Source: an uncultured Nitrospira sp.
Lineage (GTDB): Bacteria > Nitrospirota > Nitrospiria > Nitrospirales > Nitrospiraceae
DNA: 42,652 nt
Direction of reading: 5' to 3'
Assembly (NCBI GenBank): GCA_902500785.1
Contig: CABVRW010000015.1
Span: 18,606-61,257 of the forward strand
The notes below the pieces were generated by a model. It made no database searches. It worked only from the letters and a program-made list of their open reading frames with translations, and was not told the DNA's origin. The position numbers and the translations under genes were made by a program. Positions 25,785 to 38,320 of this stretch are shown piece after piece. Numbering within the stretch: position 1 is the first letter of the stretch; each line of letters opens with the position of its first letter.

Positions 25785-28460
25785 CTATGCCTTCGCTTTC
25801 CCCCGACCACGATCCGTAAATCGTTTCACCAAATCGCGCTCTTCCGTCTCACTTTTCACCTCACCATCCAACCTCGCTTCGGTCAAACGCGCCAGGATCG
25901 TGCTGTAGTAGGGGCCTGGTCTGAAACCGAGCGCCTTCAGCGCCTGTCCGGTCAAGTCCGGCTTTACATACCGATAGGTCGTCAGATACAGGGATAGATT
26001 CCGCTTTGCCGATTCTGATGCGTTTTTCGCCACCAGAAACACGAGCGTTTCATCCGACAGACCGGTCAACAACTTGACCGTTTCCGAAGGCCGAAGAGGC
26101 GCGCGCCGACTCAGCGTCCGGCAAACCTGTTGCGTGAGAAACCGGGAGGCGGTGATGGCGCCTCGTTCCGGTTCCGTGAATGGAAATCGTTCGAGCATGT
26201 CACGGACGGCTTGATCCGGCATGACCTCAGCAAGCGCCATCGCATAAACCACCCAGCCGCTGATCTTCCGATCGAAACAGGAGAGCTTATACCAATCCAG
26301 CGCCGCTTCCACCGCGATCAGCCGCCGGTCCAGTCGATTCGACCACAGCAGCGTCGGATGAATGAACCGCAGGAGATCGAGGTCCGACAGCCGTCGGACG
26401 GCATGCCGCGGCGCCCGTTCAGAAAATAACAAACGCAGCTCATCCAACAAACGCCGGCCGGAGAGTCGATGGAACAGTGCCATCTTCACCGCGCCTTTTA
26501 TCAACGCCAGCGTCTCCTTGCTCAAATTAAAATCGAAACGCAGTTCAAAACGAATCGCGCGAAAGACTCTGGTCGGATCCTCCACGAAGCTGAGACTATG
26601 TAGCACGCGGATGAGGCGTTCTTTGAGATCGCGTTGCCCGCCATAAAAATCGATCAACTGGCCCAATACCTGAGGGTTGAGCCTCACCGCCAGAGTGTTG
26701 ATCGTAAAATCCCGCCGGTAGAGATCTTTTTTGATGGAGCTCTGCTCGACCGTGGGCAACGCGGTCGGATATTCGTAATACTCTGATCGGGCGGTCGCCA
26801 CATCCACCTTGAGCCCGTCCGGCAACAGCACCACGGCCGTGCCGAATCGCTCGTGAACTTTGACCCGGCCTCCCCGCTCCTTGGCCAGGGCGCGCGCAAA
26901 CGCAATCCCATCACCCTCCACCACGAAATCCACATCAAGGTTGTCGATGCCGAGCAACAGGTCACGCACAAATCCACCGACCACGTAAGCCGAATAACCG
27001 AGACGCTCTCCCAATTCGCCGGCCGCACGCAGCAGGTCATACACGTCACGAGGCAGCCGATCGCGCAACAGTCCACCGACATCGCGCCGACGCACTCCTC
27101 CAATGGATTCCAGCCCCATCAACGATTTCGCTTTTCCGCGCGCAGCCGCGATCACATCGTCATGGAGACTTCGCAGCAGATCAGTCCGCGTAATCACGCC
27201 GACTGTTCGTCCATCAGACAGCACCGGCACCAAACGTTGATTCAATTCGATCATTCGCGTTTCGATATCATGAAACGGCGTGTCCGGTCCCGCACTATAA
27301 GGATCGTTCTTGGCGAGATCCTCAACCGGTTGCTGCCCTAGCCGATGAAAGAGGGCTTTTTGCACAATCTCGCGGGAGATGATCCCGACATAGCGGCCCT
27401 TCCGGTCCACCACGGGCAGCACATTGACTCCGTACATGGTCATCGATCGCTCCGCCTCCGCCACCGTGGCATCCGCCGCGATTGATTTCACCGGCTTCGT
27501 CATGACATCCCGGGCCAGCAGGGTCGGACGATATCGTTCCGTCAGGAGACGCGCCAGTTGTTGGTGAACTTCCACGAGCGTCCGCCCTTTCACGCTGGCG
27601 GCTGCCGCCACGGCATGGCCTCCGCCGCCGAATTCGCGCGCGATCCACGCCACGTCGATTTCCGGCCGGCGGCTTCGTCCGATGACTTCGACCTTCTCCT
27701 CCAGCGCGATGGCGACGATGACGGCATCGAAGCCCTGCAACTCCGCTAACCGCTGAGCCGCCTCAGCGAGGTCGCCTTTGTAGCGATCGTAGGTGCTCGA
27801 TGCCACCAGAATCTTGCGGCCCTCCAAATAATAGATCTCTCCCGACTGGAGTAAATCATTGAGCAGCGCGATCAAATCAGGATCCAACGGATGCCGTAAC
27901 ACCTCCGCCACCACGTTCAGATCAGCCCCGGCCCGCAGCACAAACGCGGCTGCCTCCAGATCGCGCGGGGTCGTCGACGGAAAGGCCAGCGAACCGGTCT
28001 CCTCGTACAACCCGAGGGCCAACACCGTCGCCTCAGATGCGGTGAGCGTCACCTGCTGCGCGTTCAGCCGCTCGACCAACAGCGTGGTCGTCGCGCCGAC
28101 CGCTTCCACGTGCCGTTGCGTGATCTGCGGCCAGTCGGGCTGAGACTGCTCCTCGGGATCGGCATCAACCCCATGATGATCGAAAATATGCACTTCTACG
28201 TCGGAGCGCGAGCGAAGGGCCTTCAACATGCCAAGTCGATCCGGCTCCTGGACATCCACCAGAATCAACCGTCGCACCCGTTCCAAGGCCACATCCTTGA
28301 GGCGATAGAGTTCCACATGGTGAGTTGCCAGAAAATTTCGCACCGACTCCTGGGCACCGCCGGGAAACACCAGTACTGCTCCCGGATAGAGTTTCCCAGC
28401 CGCAATCATTGAGGCCAAGCCGTCAAAGTCTGCATTCAAATGTGTCGTGATCAGATCCAT
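25785..28460 (-). CDS. DHH-CBS-tRNA nucleotidyltransferase (A-adding type)
   Basis: The protein has 891 residues in four parts. Residues 1-310 are a DHH/DHHA1 phosphoesterase (NADFDGLAS at 9-17, DHHG at 94-97, FGGGGHAVAAAAS near 281). Two CBS domains follow (about 318-440: RDVMTKPVKSIA, VDRKGRYVGIIS, TVGVITRTDLL). The last part is a class II poly(A) polymerase/CCA enzyme head: YVVGGFVRDLLLG, LDVDFVVEGDG (metal Asp pair), YRRDFTINTLAVR and EDPTRVFRAIRFE. Proteins with this layout in Aquifex and Deinococcus add only the terminal A of tRNA. A TAGAAT hexamer ends 6 bases before the ATG, with no Shine-Dalgarno. Confidence 0.9.
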   Translation of the reverse strand: MDLITTHLNADFDGLASMIAAGKLYPGAVLVFPGGAQESVRNFLATHHVELYRLKDVALERVRRLILVDVQEPDRLGMLKALRSRSDVEVHIFDHHGVDADPEEQSQPDWPQITQRHVEAVGATTTLLVERLNAQQVTLTASEATVLALGLYEETGSLAFPSTTPRDLEAAAFVLRAGADLNVVAEVLRHPLDPDLIALLNDLLQSGEIYYLEGRKILVASSTYDRYKGDLAEAAQRLAELQGFDAVIVAIALEEKVEVIGRSRRPEIDVAWIAREFGGGGHAVAAAASVKGRTLVEVHQQLARLLTERYRPTLLARDVMTKPVKSIAADATVAEAERSMTMYGVNVLPVVDRKGRYVGIISREIVQKALFHRLGQQPVEDLAKNDPYSAGPDTPFHDIETRMIELNQRLVPVLSDGRTVGVITRTDLLRSLHDDVIAAARGKAKSLMGLESIGGVRRRDVGGLLRDRLPRDVYDLLRAAGELGERLGYSAYVVGGFVRDLLLGIDNLDVDFVVEGDGIAFARALAKERGGRVKVHERFGTAVVLLPDGLKVDVATARSEYYEYPTALPTVEQSSIKKDLYRRDFTINTLAVRLNPQVLGQLIDFYGGQRDLKERLIRVLHSLSFVEDPTRVFRAIRFELRFDFNLSKETLALIKGAVKMALFHRLSGRRLLDELRLLFSERAPRHAVRRLSDLDLLRFIHPTLLWSNRLDRRLIAVEAALDWYKLSCFDRKISGWVVYAMALAEVMPDQAVRDMLERFPFTEPERGAITASRFLTQQVCRTLSRRAPLRPSETVKLLTGLSDETLVFLVAKNASESAKRNLSLYLTTYRYVKPDLTGQALKALGFRPGPYYSTILARLTEARLDGEVKSETEERDLVKRFTDRGRGKAKA

Positions 28461-28605: not shown

Positions 28606-29310
28606 TCAACGAATATCCTGAAAAAACACCCGCGGGAGGCAGGGCAACTTGAATTCCACGTGCAGAATGATCAACAGCACGCGAATGAAACTTCGCCAGA
28701 CCCCCATCTTCAGAAACTTGCGGGCATCCGTGACCACAGGAGGAGAGAGGATCATCGGGGTCGTGACGGTCAGCAGTTTCTCACAGAACGCCACGTCTTC
28801 CAGAATGGGCTGATCGGGAAAACCACCGAGTTGTTCGAACAACCCCTTCCGCACGAACAACGCCTGATCGCCATAAATGATCCGGCTCCTGACACAGCGA
28901 AAATTGTCGAGCCACGAGATCAGTTGCAGCCGCCAGTCCGATCCTGAAAATTGGTGGCAGAAGCCGCCGGCCTGGATGGCTGGATCTGCCTCCAATGCGT
29001 TGAGCCGACTCAACGCATCGACCGGCAGCCACGTATCCGCATGGAGAAAGAGCACCCAATCACCCCGTGCGAGCCTCGCACCGGCATTCATCTGGGAAGC
29101 TCGCCCTTTCTCTGCGGTCACGAGCGTGAGTGGAATCGGAACCGGGCTCCGACGAGCCAGGACACTTTGTCGAACCATCTCGCAGGTGCTGTCGCTGCTT
29201 CCTCCATCGACGACGATCACTTCATACTCGCCGGCTTGATCGAGCAAATGCCGCAACGTGACGGGCAGCGCTCGTTCTTCGTTATAAGCCGGGATGACGA
29301 CGGAGATCAT
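28606..29310 (-). CDS. Family 2 glycosyltransferase, TIGR04283 (arsenosugar-type)
   Basis: The protein has 234 residues and is a GT-A glycosyltransferase: ISVVIPAYNEERALPVTL, EVIVVDGGSSDST, EKGRASQMNAGARLARGDW, VLFLHADTWLP (D-x-D-like) and GDQALFVRKGLFEQLGGFPDQPILEDVAF. The RGDWVLFLHADT and GGFPDQPILED pieces are typical of TIGR04283, found in arsenosugar-type clusters; no arsM is visible here. The start at 29310 is set by a four-base ATGA overlap with the upstream di-iron gene; ATG 29322 is less likely. It is the last gene of the operon. Confidence 0.85.
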   Translation of the reverse strand: MISVVIPAYNEERALPVTLRHLLDQAGEYEVIVVDGGSSDSTCEMVRQSVLARRSPVPIPLTLVTAEKGRASQMNAGARLARGDWVLFLHADTWLPVDALSRLNALEADPAIQAGGFCHQFSGSDWRLQLISWLDNFRCVRSRIIYGDQALFVRKGLFEQLGGFPDQPILEDVAFCEKLLTVTTPMILSPPVVTDARKFLKMGVWRSFIRVLLIILHVEFKLPCLPRVFFQDIR

Positions 29311-29942
29311 GCCGTCAACCAAACGGGTAAAAATGTGCGCACGTCCGCCGCCCAGACGGAGGCATCCTCCTCGATCGTCTCGAAGAGATCGCCGAGGGTC
29401 AACACCATCGAGTCGATCAATGCCAAGTAATCCTGCGTGTGCAGACGAAGAATCTCCACATCCCGATGCCCATCCTCCATTGCTCGCTCCAACACACGCC
29501 GGCCGAAGTCATGATGAGCTTCTTCCTGGTGCAGGAGTATCCGGCCTAACCGGCGAAACGGGACCTGCCGCTTTTCTAGGCCGCTCTCGATACGAGTCAG
29601 AACCGCCTCTCCCAATCCTTCCAGAATCACCTGCTCAGCCAGTATACTCTCCAGCCAATCGCCACGTTCAAGCGCCTCCGTGAGCAGTCGACGATACTCC
29701 TCAAGGGCGGGCAAGAACGGAGCGGCACCGAGGTGGCGGGGAGCGAGCCAGCCGATCGCGCCGCGAAAGATCAGGGCATGCATCGCCTCCTGCCGCGCCT
29801 GCGTCATGAGAAAACGCCGTGTCTTCGAGTCGGGAGCCAGCGCCGCCTGACTCTGGGCACAACTGTTGGCCATTCGTTCGCCATACTCGAGAAACGTCAA
29901 CAACCGTGCAATGGGCACTCGCTCACCGGGCAATACCACCAT
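29307..29942 (-). CDS. Ferritin-like di-iron protein
   Basis: The protein has 211 residues, almost entirely helical. Carboxylate/His pairs at the expected places are ARQEAMHALIF (E-x2-H), ILAEQVILEGLGEA (E at a helix centre) and LLHQEEAHHDFGRR (E-x2-H-H). These are the ligands of a non-heme di-iron four-helix bundle. Members include oxygenases, N-oxygenases and desaturase-like enzymes; I cannot name a substrate. It lies 17 bases after the DUF547 gene, and overlaps the glycosyltransferase start. The start ATG at 29942 has TAGGAG about 5 bases before it. Confidence 0.78.
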   Translation of the reverse strand: MVVLPGERVPIARLLTFLEYGERMANSCAQSQAALAPDSKTRRFLMTQARQEAMHALIFRGAIGWLAPRHLGAAPFLPALEEYRRLLTEALERGDWLESILAEQVILEGLGEAVLTRIESGLEKRQVPFRRLGRILLHQEEAHHDFGRRVLERAMEDGHRDVEILRLHTQDYLALIDSMVLTLGDLFETIEEDASVWAADVRTFLPVWLTA

Positions 29943-29959
29943 GCGTAACTCCTATCGTG

Positions 29960-30727
29960 CTAAGGGGACGGTCCGTTCAGATGCCAATCGTAGTCGAGAA
30001 ATTGCACGGCGTAGTCGCCGGCTAACAGCTCCAGCTTGAGCGATGGGTCCTGCACATAGTCCGCAATGAAGCGCAGGACTGACCCGGAACGGGCCTCAAA
30101 ATCTTTGGCGAACCACTGGAAGATCATCGACAGTGAGGCCACTTTCCTCGATCGATCGAAACGATTGCGCAAAGGGTCATTCACAAACTCACTCGTGACC
30201 CGATTCAGTTGTTGATCGAGTTCCTGTCCTTCGTAGGCCCACGGTTGGAGCTTCGGACAGGATGCCGACGCACAAACAATGGCGAAATGCATGCGCGGCT
30301 CGTGAAACTGAGCGATAAGAATCTCCCGTTCCAAATCATAGAGATTCAGGGTCCGTCCACCGACAGGATACTCTCGCGCGATGAAATACCGGTATCGACC
30401 GAACAAGGTCGCCGGGGAGTAAAGGTCTAGAATGCCTTTGACGGCAAAGGCATTGTATGCATTGATCCAGAATGCGAGACGATCTGCTCTCGACAAGCCG
30501 GACGGATCCATCCGGTCCAACAACTTCAAATAGGAGGAGAGTCGCCCTTGGAGGTGGATAGCGGGATAGTCAACCGCGCCATCATGAACATGTGCGCTTA
30601 GCACCTCTTCCCACAACCGATGGGAAAATTGCTCCGGAGGGACCGGGTTCGACGGCATGAAGGTGGTCGGCACCGACGAACACCCCGCCTGTACCATCAT
30701 TAACAGGCTGACCAACAGGTACCACAT
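29960..30727 (-). CDS. DUF547 lipoprotein
   Basis: The protein has 255 residues. The N-terminus is a lipoprotein signal (LLVSLLMMVQAGC; Cys about residue 16). The rest is the DUF547 domain: HVHDGAVDYPAI, LSRADRLAFWINAYNAFAVKGIL, GRTLNLYDLEREIL, FHEPRMHFAIVCASASCPKL and SLSMIFQWFAKDF. The FWINAYNA and CASASCP segments are diagnostic. Function is unknown, but DUF547 is known near arsenosugar-type glycosyltransferases. The ATG at 30727 has GGAGG about 9 bases upstream; longer starts would cover the radical SAM end and bury the signal peptide. Confidence 0.88.
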   Translation of the reverse strand: MWYLLVSLLMMVQAGCSSVPTTFMPSNPVPPEQFSHRLWEEVLSAHVHDGAVDYPAIHLQGRLSSYLKLLDRMDPSGLSRADRLAFWINAYNAFAVKGILDLYSPATLFGRYRYFIAREYPVGGRTLNLYDLEREILIAQFHEPRMHFAIVCASASCPKLQPWAYEGQELDQQLNRVTSEFVNDPLRNRFDRSRKVASLSMIFQWFAKDFEARSGSVLRFIADYVQDPSLKLELLAGDYAVQFLDYDWHLNGPSP

Positions 30728-30740
30728 CACGATCAGCCTC

Positions 30741-31745
30741 CTATGAAAATCGCACGGGGGTCCGCCATGCCGTGATGGGATGCCGCAGGATCGTCCCGAC
30801 CACGCGCCCATCGAGACGGTTGCAGGAAGAACAATCGGAACAGGCTTGAATCTGAGTCCGGTTGAAGCGGCTGAGGATCTCCTGATAGGACAACTCACGG
30901 AGGTTTCCCACTGGCGACATTGTCAAACAGGGTGACACCTGCCCAGACGCATCGATCGCGATACTATACCGTCCTGCATCGCAAGGCTCGAGCTGTTCGC
31001 CGCGCAGCCACAGGGCATTGTCTGTGACGAATTGCCGGAAATACCCGGGAGGGATCAGGTCCTCTTTCAGGAGAAGCTCGAACACACGAACGGCGGCAGA
31101 GCGATCATACATCAGTCCGGCATCCTCTTTGCCGTAGAGCCCCACGTTCCAGTGGTACGCTCCTACGACGGGAATAAAACCTCGCGCCTTAGCGAATCGC
31201 ACAACGTCCGGCACCTCTTCGCGATTGACCTCGCTCACGATACAGGTGAGGAATTTGGGGTGAGGATACTGCGACAAAAGATTGAGTCCCGACAGAACCT
31301 GAGGTAACTGATCGGCTCCGCGGACCTGTCGGTAGCGGGCTCGATTCAGTGTGTCCAGACTGACCGATATAGGAAGGCGTAGCGAGGCAAACCGTGCGAC
31401 AAGGTCGGTCGTGAGCCTAGTGCCGTTGGTGACCACCGTCACATGCAACCCCGACGAGGAGAGGTCCTCCAGGATGTCGATGAGATCGGGACGCAGGAGC
31501 GGTTCCCCGCCCTGCACCAGAACGAACCGGATACCGGAGGCATGGAGGGTTGTAAAGATGCGCCGGATTTCCTCTCGGGTCAGCTCGTAGCGTCCCTGGT
31601 TCAGGGGAAGGTCACAGTACCCACAGGCGGAGTTACAACGAAGCGTCACCTGAAAAGTAGCCAAGACCGGCCGTCCTCGCCAAAGATTAATCAATGGCTT
31701 TACCCGGCCGGAGATCAATGCGAGGGTGCCTGCCAGTTTCACCAT
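30741..31745 (-). CDS. Radical SAM/SPASM-like protein
   Basis: The protein has 334 residues. The radical SAM cluster motif C-x3-C-x2-C is in LRCNSACGYCDLPL (about residues 36-46). QGGEPLLRPD and VTNGTRL are the usual SAM-binding strands. The C-terminal 70 residues hold more Cys (EPCDAGRYSI, VSPCLTMSPVGNL, CSDCSSCNRLDG), a SPASM-like auxiliary cluster site. Such enzymes often modify peptides or make cofactors; no precursor peptide is visible next to it. It is the first gene of a four-gene operon; the DUF547 start lies 14 bases downstream of its stop. Confidence 0.85.
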   Translation of the reverse strand: MVKLAGTLALISGRVKPLINLWRGRPVLATFQVTLRCNSACGYCDLPLNQGRYELTREEIRRIFTTLHASGIRFVLVQGGEPLLRPDLIDILEDLSSSGLHVTVVTNGTRLTTDLVARFASLRLPISVSLDTLNRARYRQVRGADQLPQVLSGLNLLSQYPHPKFLTCIVSEVNREEVPDVVRFAKARGFIPVVGAYHWNVGLYGKEDAGLMYDRSAAVRVFELLLKEDLIPPGYFRQFVTDNALWLRGEQLEPCDAGRYSIAIDASGQVSPCLTMSPVGNLRELSYQEILSRFNRTQIQACSDCSSCNRLDGRVVGTILRHPITAWRTPVRFS

Positions 31746-32399: not shown

Positions 32400-32428
32400 A
32401 GCGGCCGACCCTGTACAGGTCGGCCGCT
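32400..32428. terminator. 11-base-pair hairpin between convergent genes
   Basis: AGCGGCCGACC pairs with GGTCGGCCGCT across a 7-base loop. It reaches into the stop codon of the DUF3047 gene, so it may end transcription from both sides. Confidence 0.65.
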
Positions 32429-33203
32429 ACTCGGTTAAGCTCTTTCTCTCCCCTCGCTTCGCCGCCTTGACGAACACAATATCGCCATAATAGGCCACGG
32501 CACGCTCCTGGGTGTTATCCGTGTCGCTCATAATCGCGACACCATTGATCAACGGCGGCTCCTCGCCGAAAGCCAGCTTATAGTCCTCATAGACATTGCG
32601 CTCTTCCTCAACCCAGGAACTGATCCGCTGAGCGCCGCTCTGCACCACGATCATCTTGGCAAAGTCGGTGAAGGCATTGTCCACAATGGTGCCGACCGGA
32701 CTGTTGCCGTCCCAGATGTAATTGAGCGCCCCGATCGGAATATCGCCGAACAGCGCCCGACCAGCGTGGTACTTCAATTTCCGTCCAAAACTCACCTTGT
32801 CCGATTCATAGGCAAAGGTAATATAGAGCCGCGCCGGGTAGTCATCACCGTCCTTGCGGTTCACATCGCCCTTTTGCAACAGGTTCTCCACCTTCCACCG
32901 CCAGCGCACGATCGGGTACTCATGTGGGTCGATCGTTACAGCTTTGGTCAATCCTGAAGCAGAGGCCTCACTCACGGCCTTCACCACGGAGATCGGCCCA
33001 TCTTTCACCACTTCGTACGTCGTCTGCCGTTCGACCTTCTTGAACGTGAGCGGCTTCCACCCATCCGGCAACGTGCTCCCTTCGATCGCAGCCGAAAACT
33101 TTCCGACCTCCAGCACCAGAGGGCCTTGCGCATACCCGACCATCAGCGTCGCCAACAACCAGGTAAACAGCGCAAGCCCGATGCGCACCATCTGTCGCCT
33201 CAT
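32427..33203 (-). CDS. DUF3047 periplasmic protein
   Basis: The protein has 258 residues. A signal peptide (LALFTWLLATLMVGYAQG) is followed by the DUF3047 domain: YEVVKDGPISVVKAVSEASASGL, YPIVRWRWKVENLL, DYPARLYITFAYE and NYIWDGNSPVGTIVDNAF, ending with VAIMSDTDNTQERAVAYYGDI. Domain function is unknown; the fold may be jelly-roll like. The ATG overlaps the flavoprotein stop by four bases (ATGA), so the two are coupled. Confidence 0.88.
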   Translation of the reverse strand: MRRQMVRIGLALFTWLLATLMVGYAQGPLVLEVGKFSAAIEGSTLPDGWKPLTFKKVERQTTYEVVKDGPISVVKAVSEASASGLTKAVTIDPHEYPIVRWRWKVENLLQKGDVNRKDGDDYPARLYITFAYESDKVSFGRKLKYHAGRALFGDIPIGALNYIWDGNSPVGTIVDNAFTDFAKMIVVQSGAQRISSWVEEERNVYEDYKLAFGEEPPLINGVAIMSDTDNTQERAVAYYGDIVFVKAAKRGERKSLTE

Positions 33204-34786
33204 CGTCTCATCCAGGCAAAGAGCTTGGTCAACACCAATCTGGTCCGCGCAGTAAAATGCGCCTTGCGCCAGAGGTTGACGACCTTCTTGTTGACTTCCG
33301 CCTGGGTTGGATAGGGATGGATTGTGGCGGCGATCGTTTTCGCACCGACACCAGCCTTCATCGCCACGGAAAACTCGTTGATCATGTCGCCGGCATGCGC
33401 CGCTACGATGGTCGCGCCGAGAATCTTGTCGGTCCCTTTTTGAATATGAATGCGGGCAAACCCGTCCTCCTCCCCATCGAGGATGGCTCGATCCACCTCA
33501 TCGAGTTTATACGTATAGGTTTCGACTTCCATCCCCTTCTGCTTGGCATCCGCTTCGTAGAGGCCCACATGCGCGATCTCCGGATCGGTAAACGTGCACC
33601 AGGGCATGATCAGCGAATCCATGCCGGCATACCCTAGCCCGAAGGGATGCGGAAACAACGCATTTTGAATGACGATTTGGGCCATCGCATCAGCGGCATG
33701 GGTAAATTTGTACCGGGAGCAGATATCGCCGGCGGCATAAATACGCGGGTTCGTCGTCTGAAGGCGGTTGTTCACTTTCACGCCGGACTTGTCGTACTCG
33801 ACCCCGATAGTCTCCAACCCCAGGCCATCGACATTCGGCGTGCGCCCCACGCCGACCAGAATTTCGTCCACCGTCACATCGTAGTGCCGGTCGTGCGAGT
33901 CGAGAACAAGCCGCTTGCCGGCGGCCGATTGTTCGACTGTCACATCCTTCCCGCAACAGAGCACAGTGACACCGTCTCGTGCCATCGACTGATGCACGAG
34001 CGCCGCTGCGTCTCGATCTTCATTGGGCATGATGCCGTGCATCGTCTCGATGAGCGACACATGGCTGCCGAAGCGGGCAAAGGCCTGAGCCAGTTCGCAA
34101 CCGATCGGCCCGGCGCCGATGACACCGATGCGCGCCGGCAGCTCCGTCAGCGAGAATACTGTTTCATTGGTGAGATACCCTGCCTCCGCCAACCCTGGAA
34201 TAGCCGGCGCAGAGGCTTTCGCCCCGGTACAAACCGCTGCTTTCACGAAGGTCACCGTCCGATTTCCCGCAGGGCCTTCCACCGCGACCGTATCCTGGCC
34301 GGTAAACCGAGCCTGACCGATGTAGACATCGACACCCAACGACTTGTAGCGGTGCGCGGAATCCGTGCGGCTGATCCTCGCCCGCAATCGTCTCATCCTG
34401 GCCATGACCTCGCCGAAGTCATGTCTCACCCCCGGCGGTATGCGGACACCGAAGACCGAGGCATCACGCAACTGCGCCCAGGCGTTGGCCGCACGAATGA
34501 GCCCCTTGGAAGGCACACATCCGACATTCAGGCAATCTCCGCCCATCAGGTGGCGTTCGATCAGCGCAACCTTTGCACCCAATCCCGCCGCGATCACCGC
34601 CGTGACCAACCCTGCGGTGCCGGCGCCGATCACCACCATGTTGTAGCGACCATCGGGCTCGGGATTCATCCAATCGGACGGGTGCACGTTTTCAACCAAT
34701 GTCCGGTTGTGTTCATCGTCCGGCATGACCAAACTCTGGGTAGGGAGACTCAACGGAGCCGACTGCTCTCTCTGGATAGTGGACAT
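33200..34786 (-). CDS. Mercuric reductase/lipoamide dehydrogenase-like flavoprotein
   Basis: The protein has 528 residues. From about residue 48: FAD site MVVIGAGTAGLVTA, redox disulfide GGDCLNVGCVPSK (about 87-99), NAD site IGVIGAGPIGCELAQAFAR, GVGRTPNVDGL, FAD site NPRIYAAGDIC, and a C-terminal HPYPTQAEVN with the catalytic His. There is no N-terminal metal-binding domain and no C-terminal Cys pair for mercury, so mercury reduction is not implied. In several bacteria this flavoprotein is fused to a TVP38 membrane protein; here the two are adjacent genes. The start ATG 34786 is chosen by family length; a longer frame to 34936 overlaps the TVP38 gene. Confidence 0.85.
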   Translation of the reverse strand: MSTIQREQSAPLSLPTQSLVMPDDEHNRTLVENVHPSDWMNPEPDGRYNMVVIGAGTAGLVTAVIAAGLGAKVALIERHLMGGDCLNVGCVPSKGLIRAANAWAQLRDASVFGVRIPPGVRHDFGEVMARMRRLRARISRTDSAHRYKSLGVDVYIGQARFTGQDTVAVEGPAGNRTVTFVKAAVCTGAKASAPAIPGLAEAGYLTNETVFSLTELPARIGVIGAGPIGCELAQAFARFGSHVSLIETMHGIMPNEDRDAAALVHQSMARDGVTVLCCGKDVTVEQSAAGKRLVLDSHDRHYDVTVDEILVGVGRTPNVDGLGLETIGVEYDKSGVKVNNRLQTTNPRIYAAGDICSRYKFTHAADAMAQIVIQNALFPHPFGLGYAGMDSLIMPWCTFTDPEIAHVGLYEADAKQKGMEVETYTYKLDEVDRAILDGEEDGFARIHIQKGTDKILGATIVAAHAGDMINEFSVAMKAGVGAKTIAATIHPYPTQAEVNKKVVNLWRKAHFTARTRLVLTKLFAWMRR

Positions 34787-34841
34787 GCGCGCTGCCTTTC
34801 GCTCCGCCCGGGGTGTATCTCGGTGGAGATCCTCGTGCAGT

Positions 34842-35579
34842 TCAAGCCGACTTGCCGGCAACCTTCTTATAGAGCATGGGCACCAGCGCCAACAGGCCAA
34901 GTAACGTAAACGCCAGCAACACGTTGGGCGAAGCAATTTGTGTCAGTGAATTGATCGTGCCCAGTTGGCGCCCGGCGTAGGCGAACACGAAACTACCGGG
35001 AATGATACCCAGTGACGTCGCCACCATGTAGGTCCCGACGTTGACCCTGGTCAATCCGGATACCAGATTGACCAGAAAAAACGGAAACAGCGGAATCAGT
35101 CGCAAGGTCAAGAGATAACTGAACGCATTCTTCGCAAATCCCTGCTGAATGGACCCCAACCGGTTGCCGAATTTCTGCTCGACCCATTCCCTGAGCAGAT
35201 ATCGTGCGACCAGAAACGCCAGCGTCGCACCCACGGTGGCACCGGCATTCACGTAAAGGGTTCCCAAAACACTGCCGAACAGAAACCCTCCGCCCAAAGT
35301 CATAATCGCCCCACCGGGCAGCGAAAGCCCGACCACCACACAGTAGGCAATCACAAAGATGGCCACCGATGTCGAATAGTTGGCTTCTGTGAACGCGAGC
35401 AGATCATCCCGGTTGGACTTGAGCCCATCCAGGGAAAGGTAATGACCGAGGTTAAAATAGAAAAAGGCCGCGATGCTCAGCCCGACGAGAAGTCCCAGCA
35501 CCAGTTTGCCAAGGCCGCCGTGCTTCGCCGATGGGGACCTGTCAACAGAAGTAGTCATAGCACCCTGGGGCGATATCAT
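34842..35579 (-). CDS. TVP38/TMEM64 (VTT domain) membrane protein
   Basis: The protein has 245 residues. About six membrane segments include the VTT core: LSLPGGAIMTLGGGFLFGSV, GATVGATLAFLVARYLL and RLIPLFPFFLVNLVSGLT. VTT proteins (DedA/TMEM41B relatives) move lipids between membrane leaflets or aid small-molecule transport. The ATG at 35579 follows GAGGAG by about 7 bases. It opens a three-gene operon with the flavoprotein and DUF3047 genes. Confidence 0.9.
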   Translation of the reverse strand: MISPQGAMTTSVDRSPSAKHGGLGKLVLGLLVGLSIAAFFYFNLGHYLSLDGLKSNRDDLLAFTEANYSTSVAIFVIAYCVVVGLSLPGGAIMTLGGGFLFGSVLGTLYVNAGATVGATLAFLVARYLLREWVEQKFGNRLGSIQQGFAKNAFSYLLTLRLIPLFPFFLVNLVSGLTRVNVGTYMVATSLGIIPGSFVFAYAGRQLGTINSLTQIASPNVLLAFTLLGLLALVPMLYKKVAGKSA

Positions 35580-36560: not shown

Positions 36561-37205
36561 ATGGATCACAATGACCGCTTAATCAAAACGAAGGAACATT
36601 GGGCCAAGGCTAGACGCGGCGGAGAAGAACGCGAGGTCTTCTACGAGGGAGACGAGCGACTCCCTCCAGGCCAACATCTCGTAGAAACCTGGCCGGTACT
36701 CGACCTGGGTCAAAAGCCTGATATTCCGCTCTCGGAATGGACGCTGACCATCGGAGGTGCGGTGACGACCCCCGTCACCTGGACCTGGGCAGACTTCCTT
36801 GCGCAACCGCAATTCAAAAACGTGTCTGACTTTCATTGCGTGACGTCCTGGAGTCGCTTCGACAATGAATGGGAGGGGGTCAGTTTCAAGCAACTGATGA
36901 CCGTCGTTCAACCGCTTTCGTCCGCTCGATTTGTCTTGTTTAAATCCTACGACGATTACACCACCAATTTACCGCTGGACGCCTGTCAGACGGACGACGT
37001 GCTCCTCACCTACAAATGGAATGGGCGACCGCTCACGAAGGAGCACGGCGGCCCGGTTCGCATGATTATCCCGAAACGTTACGCTTGGAAAGGCGCCAAA
37101 TGGATCAAAGAAATCACCTTCTCCGATCGCGACGAGAAGGGTTTCTGGGAAGTGCGGGGCTATTCCAACAGCGCCTTCCCCTGGCAAAACGACCGGTACG
37201 GATGA
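36561..37205 (+). CDS. YuiH-type molybdopterin-dependent oxidoreductase
   Basis: The protein has 214 residues and lacks a signal peptide. It matches the sulfite-oxidase-like YuiH group: PPGQHLVETWPVLDLG, DFHCVTSWSRFDNEWEGV with the molybdenum-ligand Cys93, YTTNLPLDACQ, HGGPVRMIIPKRYAWKGAKW and the ending GFWEVRGYSNSAFPW. The domain binds molybdopterin; the substrate is unknown. The ATG at 36561 follows GGGAGG. Its stop overlaps the start of the epimerase by four bases. Confidence 0.9.
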   Translation: MDHNDRLIKTKEHWAKARRGGEEREVFYEGDERLPPGQHLVETWPVLDLGQKPDIPLSEWTLTIGGAVTTPVTWTWADFLAQPQFKNVSDFHCVTSWSRFDNEWEGVSFKQLMTVVQPLSSARFVLFKSYDDYTTNLPLDACQTDDVLLTYKWNGRPLTKEHGGPVRMIIPKRYAWKGAKWIKEITFSDRDEKGFWEVRGYSNSAFPWQNDRYG

Positions 37206-38320
37206 GCACGTTATCCACGCTGAAGGTCGACGTTATCCAGCGCCTCGAGATCTGGCCGGTCGATATCCCGATCACTGATCCGTTCGTCGTCGCCACCGGG
37301 GCACGGCTAACGGCAGAGAACCTCTTCATGCGAGTGACCTTGAGGGATGGAACTCAGGGCGTCGGGGAGGCCGCCCCGTTCCCTGAAGTCGGAGATGAGG
37401 ATCGGACATCCTGCCTCGCGGCCGCTACGGAGCTGGCCCGAACCTTGGTGGGACAATCCGTCACGGACTATGAGGTCCTGGCAGATCGGCTCACCGAACA
37501 GGCCCCACTCCATCCTGCTGCCCGTTGCGGATTAGAAACGGCGGTGCTCGATGCCTATTGTCGATCGCACGCTATCCCATTCTGGCAACTCTGGGGATCA
37601 GCCGACGTCCGAGCGCGGGAAACCGACATCACCATCCCGATCTGCAGTCTGGAACAAACGCTGGAACTCTCACGCAGTTGATATGCCAAAGGATTTCGCC
37701 TCTTCAAGATGAAAATCGGAACGGATGTCGAACAGGACATTCTCCGGTTACACGCCGTACACGATGCACTCCCCGACATCGGCTTTATCGGCGACGGGAA
37801 TCAGGGCTTTTCCCGAGAAGACTGCATTCGCTTTGTCAGCGGGGTGAAACAATTCGGAGGGCGTCTGGTCCTACTCGAACAACCGGTCGTTCGGGAGGAT
37901 CTCGAAGGCCTGCAAGCGATTCGACACCTGACAGGCATTCCCGTGGCGGCTGATGAATCCGTTCGATCACTCGAGGACGCTCGCCGGGTCGTCCACTTGC
38001 AGGCAGCCGACTATATCAACATCAAGATCATGAAAACCGGTGTATTGGAAGCTCGCAGAATCGCCGCATTCGCTCTCTCCGCAGGACTCCGCCTGATGAT
38101 CGGCGGCATGCTGGAAACCCGTGTCGCCATGGGGTGCTCCTTCGGACTCGTGCTGGGACTTGGCGGCTTCGACGTACTGGACCTCGATACACCACTCCTC
38201 CTCTCCACTGACCCGGTCATGGGCGGTTATCGGTATGACGGCCCCTTGCTTCACCCCTGGCATCAGCCAGGCCTCGACATGCAGGTGCCTGGTCAGACGG
38301 ACTGCATGACCATCCAATAA
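37202..38320 (+). pseudogene. Dipeptide epimerase (enolase superfamily) with an in-frame UGA
   Basis: The frame is continuous except for one TGA at 37679-37681. Before it: an enolase-N domain (IEIWPVDIPITDPFVVATG-like start; GVGEAAPFPEVGDED). After it: YAKGFRLFKMKIG (K-x-K), IGDGNQGFS, VLLEQPV, PVAADESVRS, INIKIMKTG and MIGGMLETRVAMG. All catalytic residues of the L-Ala-D/L-Glu epimerase type are therefore after the stop. A restart at ATG 37709 would lose the first Lys of K-x-K. Joined, the protein would have 372 residues, the family's normal length. The TGA is probably a point nonsense mutation, but recoding or a sequence error cannot be excluded. Confidence 0.85.

Follow-up and report, generated by a model that had tools for sequence, protein, structure and literature searches.

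ArsS adenosylates arsenic in oxo-arsenosugar biosynthesis (review PMC12159101). On plasmids of Burkholderia glumae, Cupriavidus KK10, Acinetobacter portensis and Hymenobacter volaticus, its gene is adjoined by relatives of DUF547 and TIGR04283. The role of TIGR04283-type glycosyltransferases (GTs) in that pathway is known here from annotation alone, and literature searches on TIGR04283, DUF547 or arsenosugar GTs found nothing bearing on function. Here we analyze a four-gene operon that combines a DUF547 lipoprotein and a TIGR04283-type GT with a radical SAM/SPASM protein and a ferritin-like di-iron protein, which we name FerL. The operon lies in a 42,652-nucleotide stretch of DNA (the window), which is part of contig C15. 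The genome measures 3.9 Mb, and Nitrospira metagenome-assembled genomes (MAGs) are its closest named relatives. We tentatively read it as a lineage-specific Nitrospirales cassette, derived from an ArsS-type gene set and since separated from ArsS, that may make a modified, glycosylated envelope product.

Operon structure, distribution and empty sites

The four genes form a tight operon on the minus strand (31745–28606), in the order radical SAM, DUF547, FerL and GT. Intergenic gaps are about 10, 17 and -4 bp, the last being an ATGA overlap between the FerL and GT genes. An earlier note, made from the sequence alone, had named these four proteins and described their genes as close or overlapping; both the gene identities and the operon structure are borne out. 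All four genes are under purifying selection (dN/dS about 0.07–0.14, NG86 estimates against three relatives), and their arrangement is far from chance.

FerL is nearly restricted to one bacterial order. We surveyed 97 Nitrospirales genomes and, in a separate scan of 84,980 species, recovered 80 FerL loci; many of the surveyed genomes are MAGs with short contigs. FerL occurs in 43 of the 97 genomes, once by a weak 24-bit match. Within its phylum it is limited to Nitrospirales apart from one 37-bit match, and the few matches labelled as other phyla are short contigs or MAGs placed in the same order (for example, G062). A 3-kb contig assigned to a "Verrucomicrobiota" MAG (L100, 1–3037) carries the Nitrospira cassette with an 86% identical FerL and is probably misbinned.

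FerL–GT is the constant core of the cassette. Of the 77 loci where this can be tested, 75 have the GT gene immediately after FerL; three further contigs end too soon for the test, and both exceptions are a FerL paralogue beside PPDK-type and CarS-like proteins. The order radical SAM, DUF547, FerL, GT is found at 51 of the 80 FerL loci; within 6 kb upstream of FerL, DUF547 is present at 74 and radical SAM at 62. Because the set is conserved in two Nitrospirales families with its gene order rearranged, the objection that these genes co-occur only in close relatives does not apply within the order. As a whole, the cassette is limited to Nitrospirales.

Related genomes show what the locus looks like without the cassette. 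In same-genus genomes lacking FerL, the upstream neighbours of the operon, encoding a VTT membrane protein, an FAD oxidoreductase and a DUF3047 protein, run straight into the tRNA nucleotidyltransferase gene, mostly together with hyp152, and the cassette alone is missing. The distance from the tRNA nucleotidyltransferase gene to the DUF3047 gene is then 0.6–1.4 kb. In one such genome (G024), homology to the window ends at about 28499 and restarts at about 31761, so that the gap spans exactly the four cassette genes. No significant cassette remnants were found at the empty sites. These clean empty sites mark the operon, as first delimited, as a real presence/absence cassette that is kept or lost as a block. 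Retention of the VTT, FAD oxidoreductase and DUF3047 genes identifies these as the core block of the locus, with or without the cassette, and the four genes as its variable unit; hyp152, kept at most empty sites, is likewise a neighbour and not a member.

Table 1. The four-gene operon and neighbouring features, in window coordinates
Feature	Coordinates	Strand	Match or remark
GT2 glycosyltransferase, TIGR04283 type, diverged paralogue	28606–29310	-	216.8 bits (cut-off 182); ATGA overlap with FerL
FerL, ferritin-like di-iron protein, 211 aa	29307–29942	-	Predicted ADO/R2lox-type fold (AF2 model)
DUF547 lipoprotein	29960–30730	-	PF04784, 95 bits; lipobox VQAGC
Radical SAM/SPASM protein, 334 aa	30741–31745	-	PF04055 and PF13186; CX3CX2C motif
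hyp152, secreted protein, 152 aa	31898–32356	+	Divergent from operon; no Pfam match
DUF3047 protein, upstream neighbour	32427–33203	-	PF11249, 259 bits
FAD oxidoreductase, upstream neighbour	33200–34936	-	NF004991, 778.6 bits (cut-off 620); mercuric-reductase/lipoamide-dehydrogenase superfamily
VTT/TVP38 (DedA-superfamily) membrane protein, upstream neighbour	34842–35579	-	PF09335, 93 bits
DHH-CBS-poly(A) polymerase fusion	25785–28460	-	Resembles A-adding tRNA nucleotidyltransferase; 872 bits, below cut-off of 1440
Enolase-superfamily gene in two frames	37016–38320	+	MR_MLE N-terminal part 37016–37681, C-terminal part 37709–38320; split by a frameshift or an assembly error

The cassette proteins and their candidate chemistry

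FerL resembles di-iron oxygenases in predicted structure. At an E value of 0.001 no Pfam family matched it; weak matches were confined to the di-iron proteins Phenol_Hydrox, AurF, COQ7 and RNR, none fell in ferritin or rubrerythrin families, and a PDB sequence search gave marginal matches only. The best PDB match of its AlphaFold2 (AF2) model (predicted local distance difference test score, pLDDT, 86) is aldehyde-deformylating oxygenase (ADO), the alkane-making enzyme of cyanobacteria (VIA Z 23.9, 2.5 Å over 202 residues), followed by R2-like ligand-binding oxidase (R2lox; Z 20.9). All 22 homologues compared keep E22, E52, H55, E103, E140 and H143 unchanged; these residues would be the di-iron ligands, fitting a 4E+2H pattern. 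No acyl-ACP reductase occurs among the annotated cassette neighbours, although the whole genome was not searched for one. The FerL frame is split in two at L078 (8196–8716), L166, L172 and L173, which suggests decay or sequencing errors.

The radical SAM protein keeps close company with FerL. It passes both Pfam thresholds (PF04055, 86.1 bits against 29.5; SPASM PF13186, 30.5 bits against 21.5) and reaches none of the NCBIfam equivalog cut-offs. Cysteines C37, C41, C44, C255, C273, C302 and C308, comprising the CX3CX2C motif and C-terminal SPASM cysteines, are invariant in 15 homologues. Its gene is present in 27 of the 97 Nitrospirales genomes, all 27 of which have FerL (Fisher p about 1e-13, no phylogenetic correction). 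In a PDB profile search, in which matches spanned E values of 1e-16 to 1e-9, the closest was Tes, the tetraether lipid synthase (1e-16).

The DUF547 protein places one component of the system in the envelope. Translation likely starts at ATG 30727 or GTG 30730 and not at the listed GTG 30898, given an AGGAGG at 30742–30737 and the lipobox that follows the start. The lipid-anchor cysteine and an HFAIVCAS.SCP motif are invariant in 20 homologues, and the gene is the sole DUF547 gene of its genome. The AF2 model is confident (pLDDT 92); PDB searches with model and sequence returned no match, which does not by itself argue that the fold is new.

We infer a sequence of catalytic steps from what is known of the families and from the fold. 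FerL, acting as an O2-using di-iron oxygenase or oxidase of ADO/R2lox type, and the SPASM radical SAM enzyme, at loci that have it, would work in the cytoplasm and modify by oxidation a substrate that is hydrophobic (acyl or lipid-like). A sugar would next be attached by the co-translated GT, and the glycoconjugate would then pass to the envelope, where the DUF547 lipoprotein may bind or process it. The earlier note had proposed a product exposed at the outer membrane; the lipobox supplies a lipid-anchored envelope protein, and the product itself would be located there as well. Likely helpers, though separable from the cassette, are the VTT membrane protein and the FAD oxidoreductase encoded next to it.

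On this reading the cassette product would probably be lipid-like. Two neighbour clues faintly suggest lipid chemistry: the FerL paralogue beside PPDK-type and CarS-like proteins, and the match of radical SAM to Tes. Several points weigh against this scheme. The lipid-like substrate is drawn from fold resemblance and those two weak clues; the likeness of FerL to ADO is structural only (16–19% identity); Tes merely tops a list of generic SPASM relatives (SkfB, MoaA, BlsE); and DUF547 has no known fold or activity. Radical SAM is moreover missing at 18 of the 80 FerL loci, of which some lie on short contigs, and at the locus of the cultured N. moscoviensis, which has DUF547, FerL and GT; the pathway can therefore do without it. 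At L049, L050, L145 and L146, a FerL paralogue without a GT adjoins a PPDK/PEP-utiliser protein and a CarS-like CDP-archaeol synthase.

Relation to arsenosugar genes

The cassette GT is a deep paralogue of the canonical, arsenosugar-type enzyme. In a maximum-likelihood tree, cassette GTs form a single clade (support 100/100) distinct from the canonical Nitrospirales TIGR04283 copies, among which three proteobacterial ArsS-linked GTs are grouped. In a 39-genome sample, a second TIGR04283 copy was found only in FerL-positive genomes. The genome that contains the window encodes the canonical TIGR04283 protein (246.9 bits) with its TIGR04282 partner on contig C5, and this partner is missing from the cassette.

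Plasmid-borne ArsS clusters contain relatives of both the cassette and its neighbours. Three of the four ArsS plasmids also encode methylthioadenosine (MTA) phosphorylase and a VTT protein; where annotated, the latter forms a fusion with an FAD oxidoreductase. The window VTT protein is 37–40% identical to the VTT half of such fusions, and the window FAD oxidoreductase is of the partner type, with a fusion homologue on the B. glumae plasmid. About 28 kb of that plasmid (L174, 1762–28645) encode ArsS, the TVP38-FAD fusion, DUF547, TIGR04283/TIGR04282 and MTA phosphorylase, together with extracytoplasmic function (ECF) sigma factors and two DUF2282-DUF692 bufferin sets. We considered whether the radical SAM gene that adjoins DUF547 on two of these plasmids (B. 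glumae and Cupriavidus) is a counterpart of the window gene, and rejected this: it is not orthologous, since tblastn gave no match even at 1e-3 (B. glumae), and searches of the plasmids for the window protein returned generic relatives only. Given the GT tree and the ArsS-linked DUF547 and GT relatives, the cassette looks like a paralogous offshoot of the ArsS-associated gene set.

Arsenic metabolism is present in the same genome, at a distance from the cassette. The earlier note had seen neither arsM nor ArsS; there is no ArsS or arsM in the window, and both lie on contig C19 of the same genome, where ArsS stands beside arsM (371 bits against a cut-off of 263) and another ArsM-like gene. Acr3/ArsC-type genes are present as well. 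The note's contrast with arsenosugar clusters was therefore too strong, all the more as DUF547 and GT relatives adjoin ArsS on plasmids. It had said that a cluster lying beside known arsenosugar genes in relatives would refute its reading; there is partial evidence of this outside the order, in the DUF547 and TIGR04283 relatives on those four plasmids, and none within Nitrospirales.

As an alternative, the cassette could perform late steps of arsenosugar or arsenolipid synthesis, starting from 5'-deoxyadenosyl-dimethylarsine made by the unlinked ArsM and ArsS. The arsenic genes just described and the canonical TIGR04283–TIGR04282 pair speak for this, as do the plasmid neighbourhoods and two same-genus genomes (G059 and G063) whose ArsS contig holds a second VTT–FAD oxidoreductase–DUF3047 set and an MNIO gene. 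We consider it unlikely. ArsS scores above the TIGR04167 cut-off in 88 of the 97 Nitrospirales genomes against 43 for FerL, and thus does not require the cassette. In no Nitrospirales genome examined is ArsS linked to FerL: it lies on a different contig or more than 1.3 Mb away. The genome already has a canonical arsenosugar-type GT, and the cassette GT belongs to a separate clade. It is improbable, by our estimate, that FerL represents a new ADO/R2lox-type branch which, with radical SAM and the dedicated GT, makes an undescribed Nitrospira envelope glycolipid, possibly an arsenic-containing one built on the ArsS product.

Bufferins, stress genes and described systems

A second Nitrospirales family links the cassette to bufferins, peptides that chelate excess copper and improve growth under copper stress (PMC12452194, a paper with no mention of Nitrospira or of the cassette partner genes). 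In this family (f3), the relevant MNIO lies within 6 kb of FerL in nine of the ten genomes that have it, in at least three gene orders, and the neighbouring precursor passes the BufA2 model with 68.7 bits (cut-off 60). Relatives such as L056 thus combine an MNIO gene with a Cys-rich precursor at the locus. At a locus in genome G015 (L087, 5409–10558), the VTT, FAD oxidoreductase and DUF3047 genes stand directly upstream of BufA-MNIO-BufC, and FerL is on another contig.

These arrangements, and the frequency with which SPASM enzymes modify peptides, would suit maturation of a ribosomally synthesized and post-translationally modified peptide (RiPP), with radical SAM, FerL and GT acting on a BufA2-type bufferin in f3 and on an unrecognised peptide in the window's family. 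We rate this the least probable of the explanations considered. No genuine MNIO is encoded in the window's genome; the sole candidate is a partial match of 43 bits within a frame of 546 aa. Seven small intergenic open reading frames near the operon, compared against 12 loci, gave trivial matches only; none is conserved in relatives. Unless the precursor goes unrecognised, peptide modification is therefore not the shared function. FerL, GT and DUF547 are also kept in many genomes without bufferin genes nearby. The small-peptide product floated in the earlier note finds no support in the window, where no precursor was found; bufferin genes do interleave with the cassette in the sister family.

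Recurrent neighbours could instead point to a periplasmic stress module, directed at copper, hypochlorite or sulfur oxidants, in which FerL would use up O2 or peroxide and the cassette would repair or shield the envelope. Proposed partners are nearby SUOX/MsrP-like molybdoenzymes, thioredoxins, bufferins and ECF sigma factors. A SorA/MsrP-like SUOX, a TlpA-like thioredoxin, an ECF sigma factor and a lactonase do recur by the cassette in relatives, the ArsS plasmid clusters also contain ECF factors, and the copper phenotype of bufferins fits such a role. These neighbours vary, whereas FerL–GT is constant; a scavenging module would not be expected to contain a GT and a radical SAM enzyme, and FerL matches no ferritin or rubrerythrin family. 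A stress module is, in our assessment, distinctly unlikely, and we retain, tentatively, the envelope-glycoconjugate cassette.

The earlier note proposed an undescribed system, and the conserved unit is indeed not described in the literature searched. Nitrospira, to which the comammox bacteria belong, are a major group of nitrite oxidisers. A cassette that is conserved yet optional, and that has an uncharacterised, putative di-iron oxygenase, offers a target for comparing envelope chemistry from strain to strain. In Nitrospirales, proteins of DUF547 and TIGR04283 type, which usually carry the annotation "arsenosugar biosynthesis", make up a system of their own, so that label is not to be taken literally in this order. 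The bufferin link in the sister family ties together gene sets of ArsS, copper-RiPP and molybdoenzyme type, and plasmids of B. glumae show such a link too.

Four described systems frame the cassette. With the ArsS-associated clusters of B. glumae, Cupriavidus KK10 and A. portensis, the window locus shares DUF547, a TIGR04283-scoring GT, VTT and FAD oxidoreductase, and ECF sigma factor and bufferin genes may adjoin either kind of locus. Unlike those clusters, it lacks ArsS, TIGR04282 and MTA phosphorylase, and has FerL, an unrelated SPASM radical SAM enzyme and a GT that falls in a separate clade. BufA2 (MNIO) clusters are interleaved with the cassette in the second family, whereas the window operon has neither an MNIO nearby nor a precursor peptide in the window. 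The radical SAM protein has the CX3CX2C and SPASM cysteines of the group that includes Tes, SkfB, PqqE, BlsE and MoaA, yet meets no equivalog model. The FerL model shares a predicted whole-length fold (Z 21–24) and the 4E+2H ligand pattern with ADO and R2lox, but FerL has 16–19% sequence identity to them, matches no ADO family in Pfam or NCBIfam and keeps other genomic partners.

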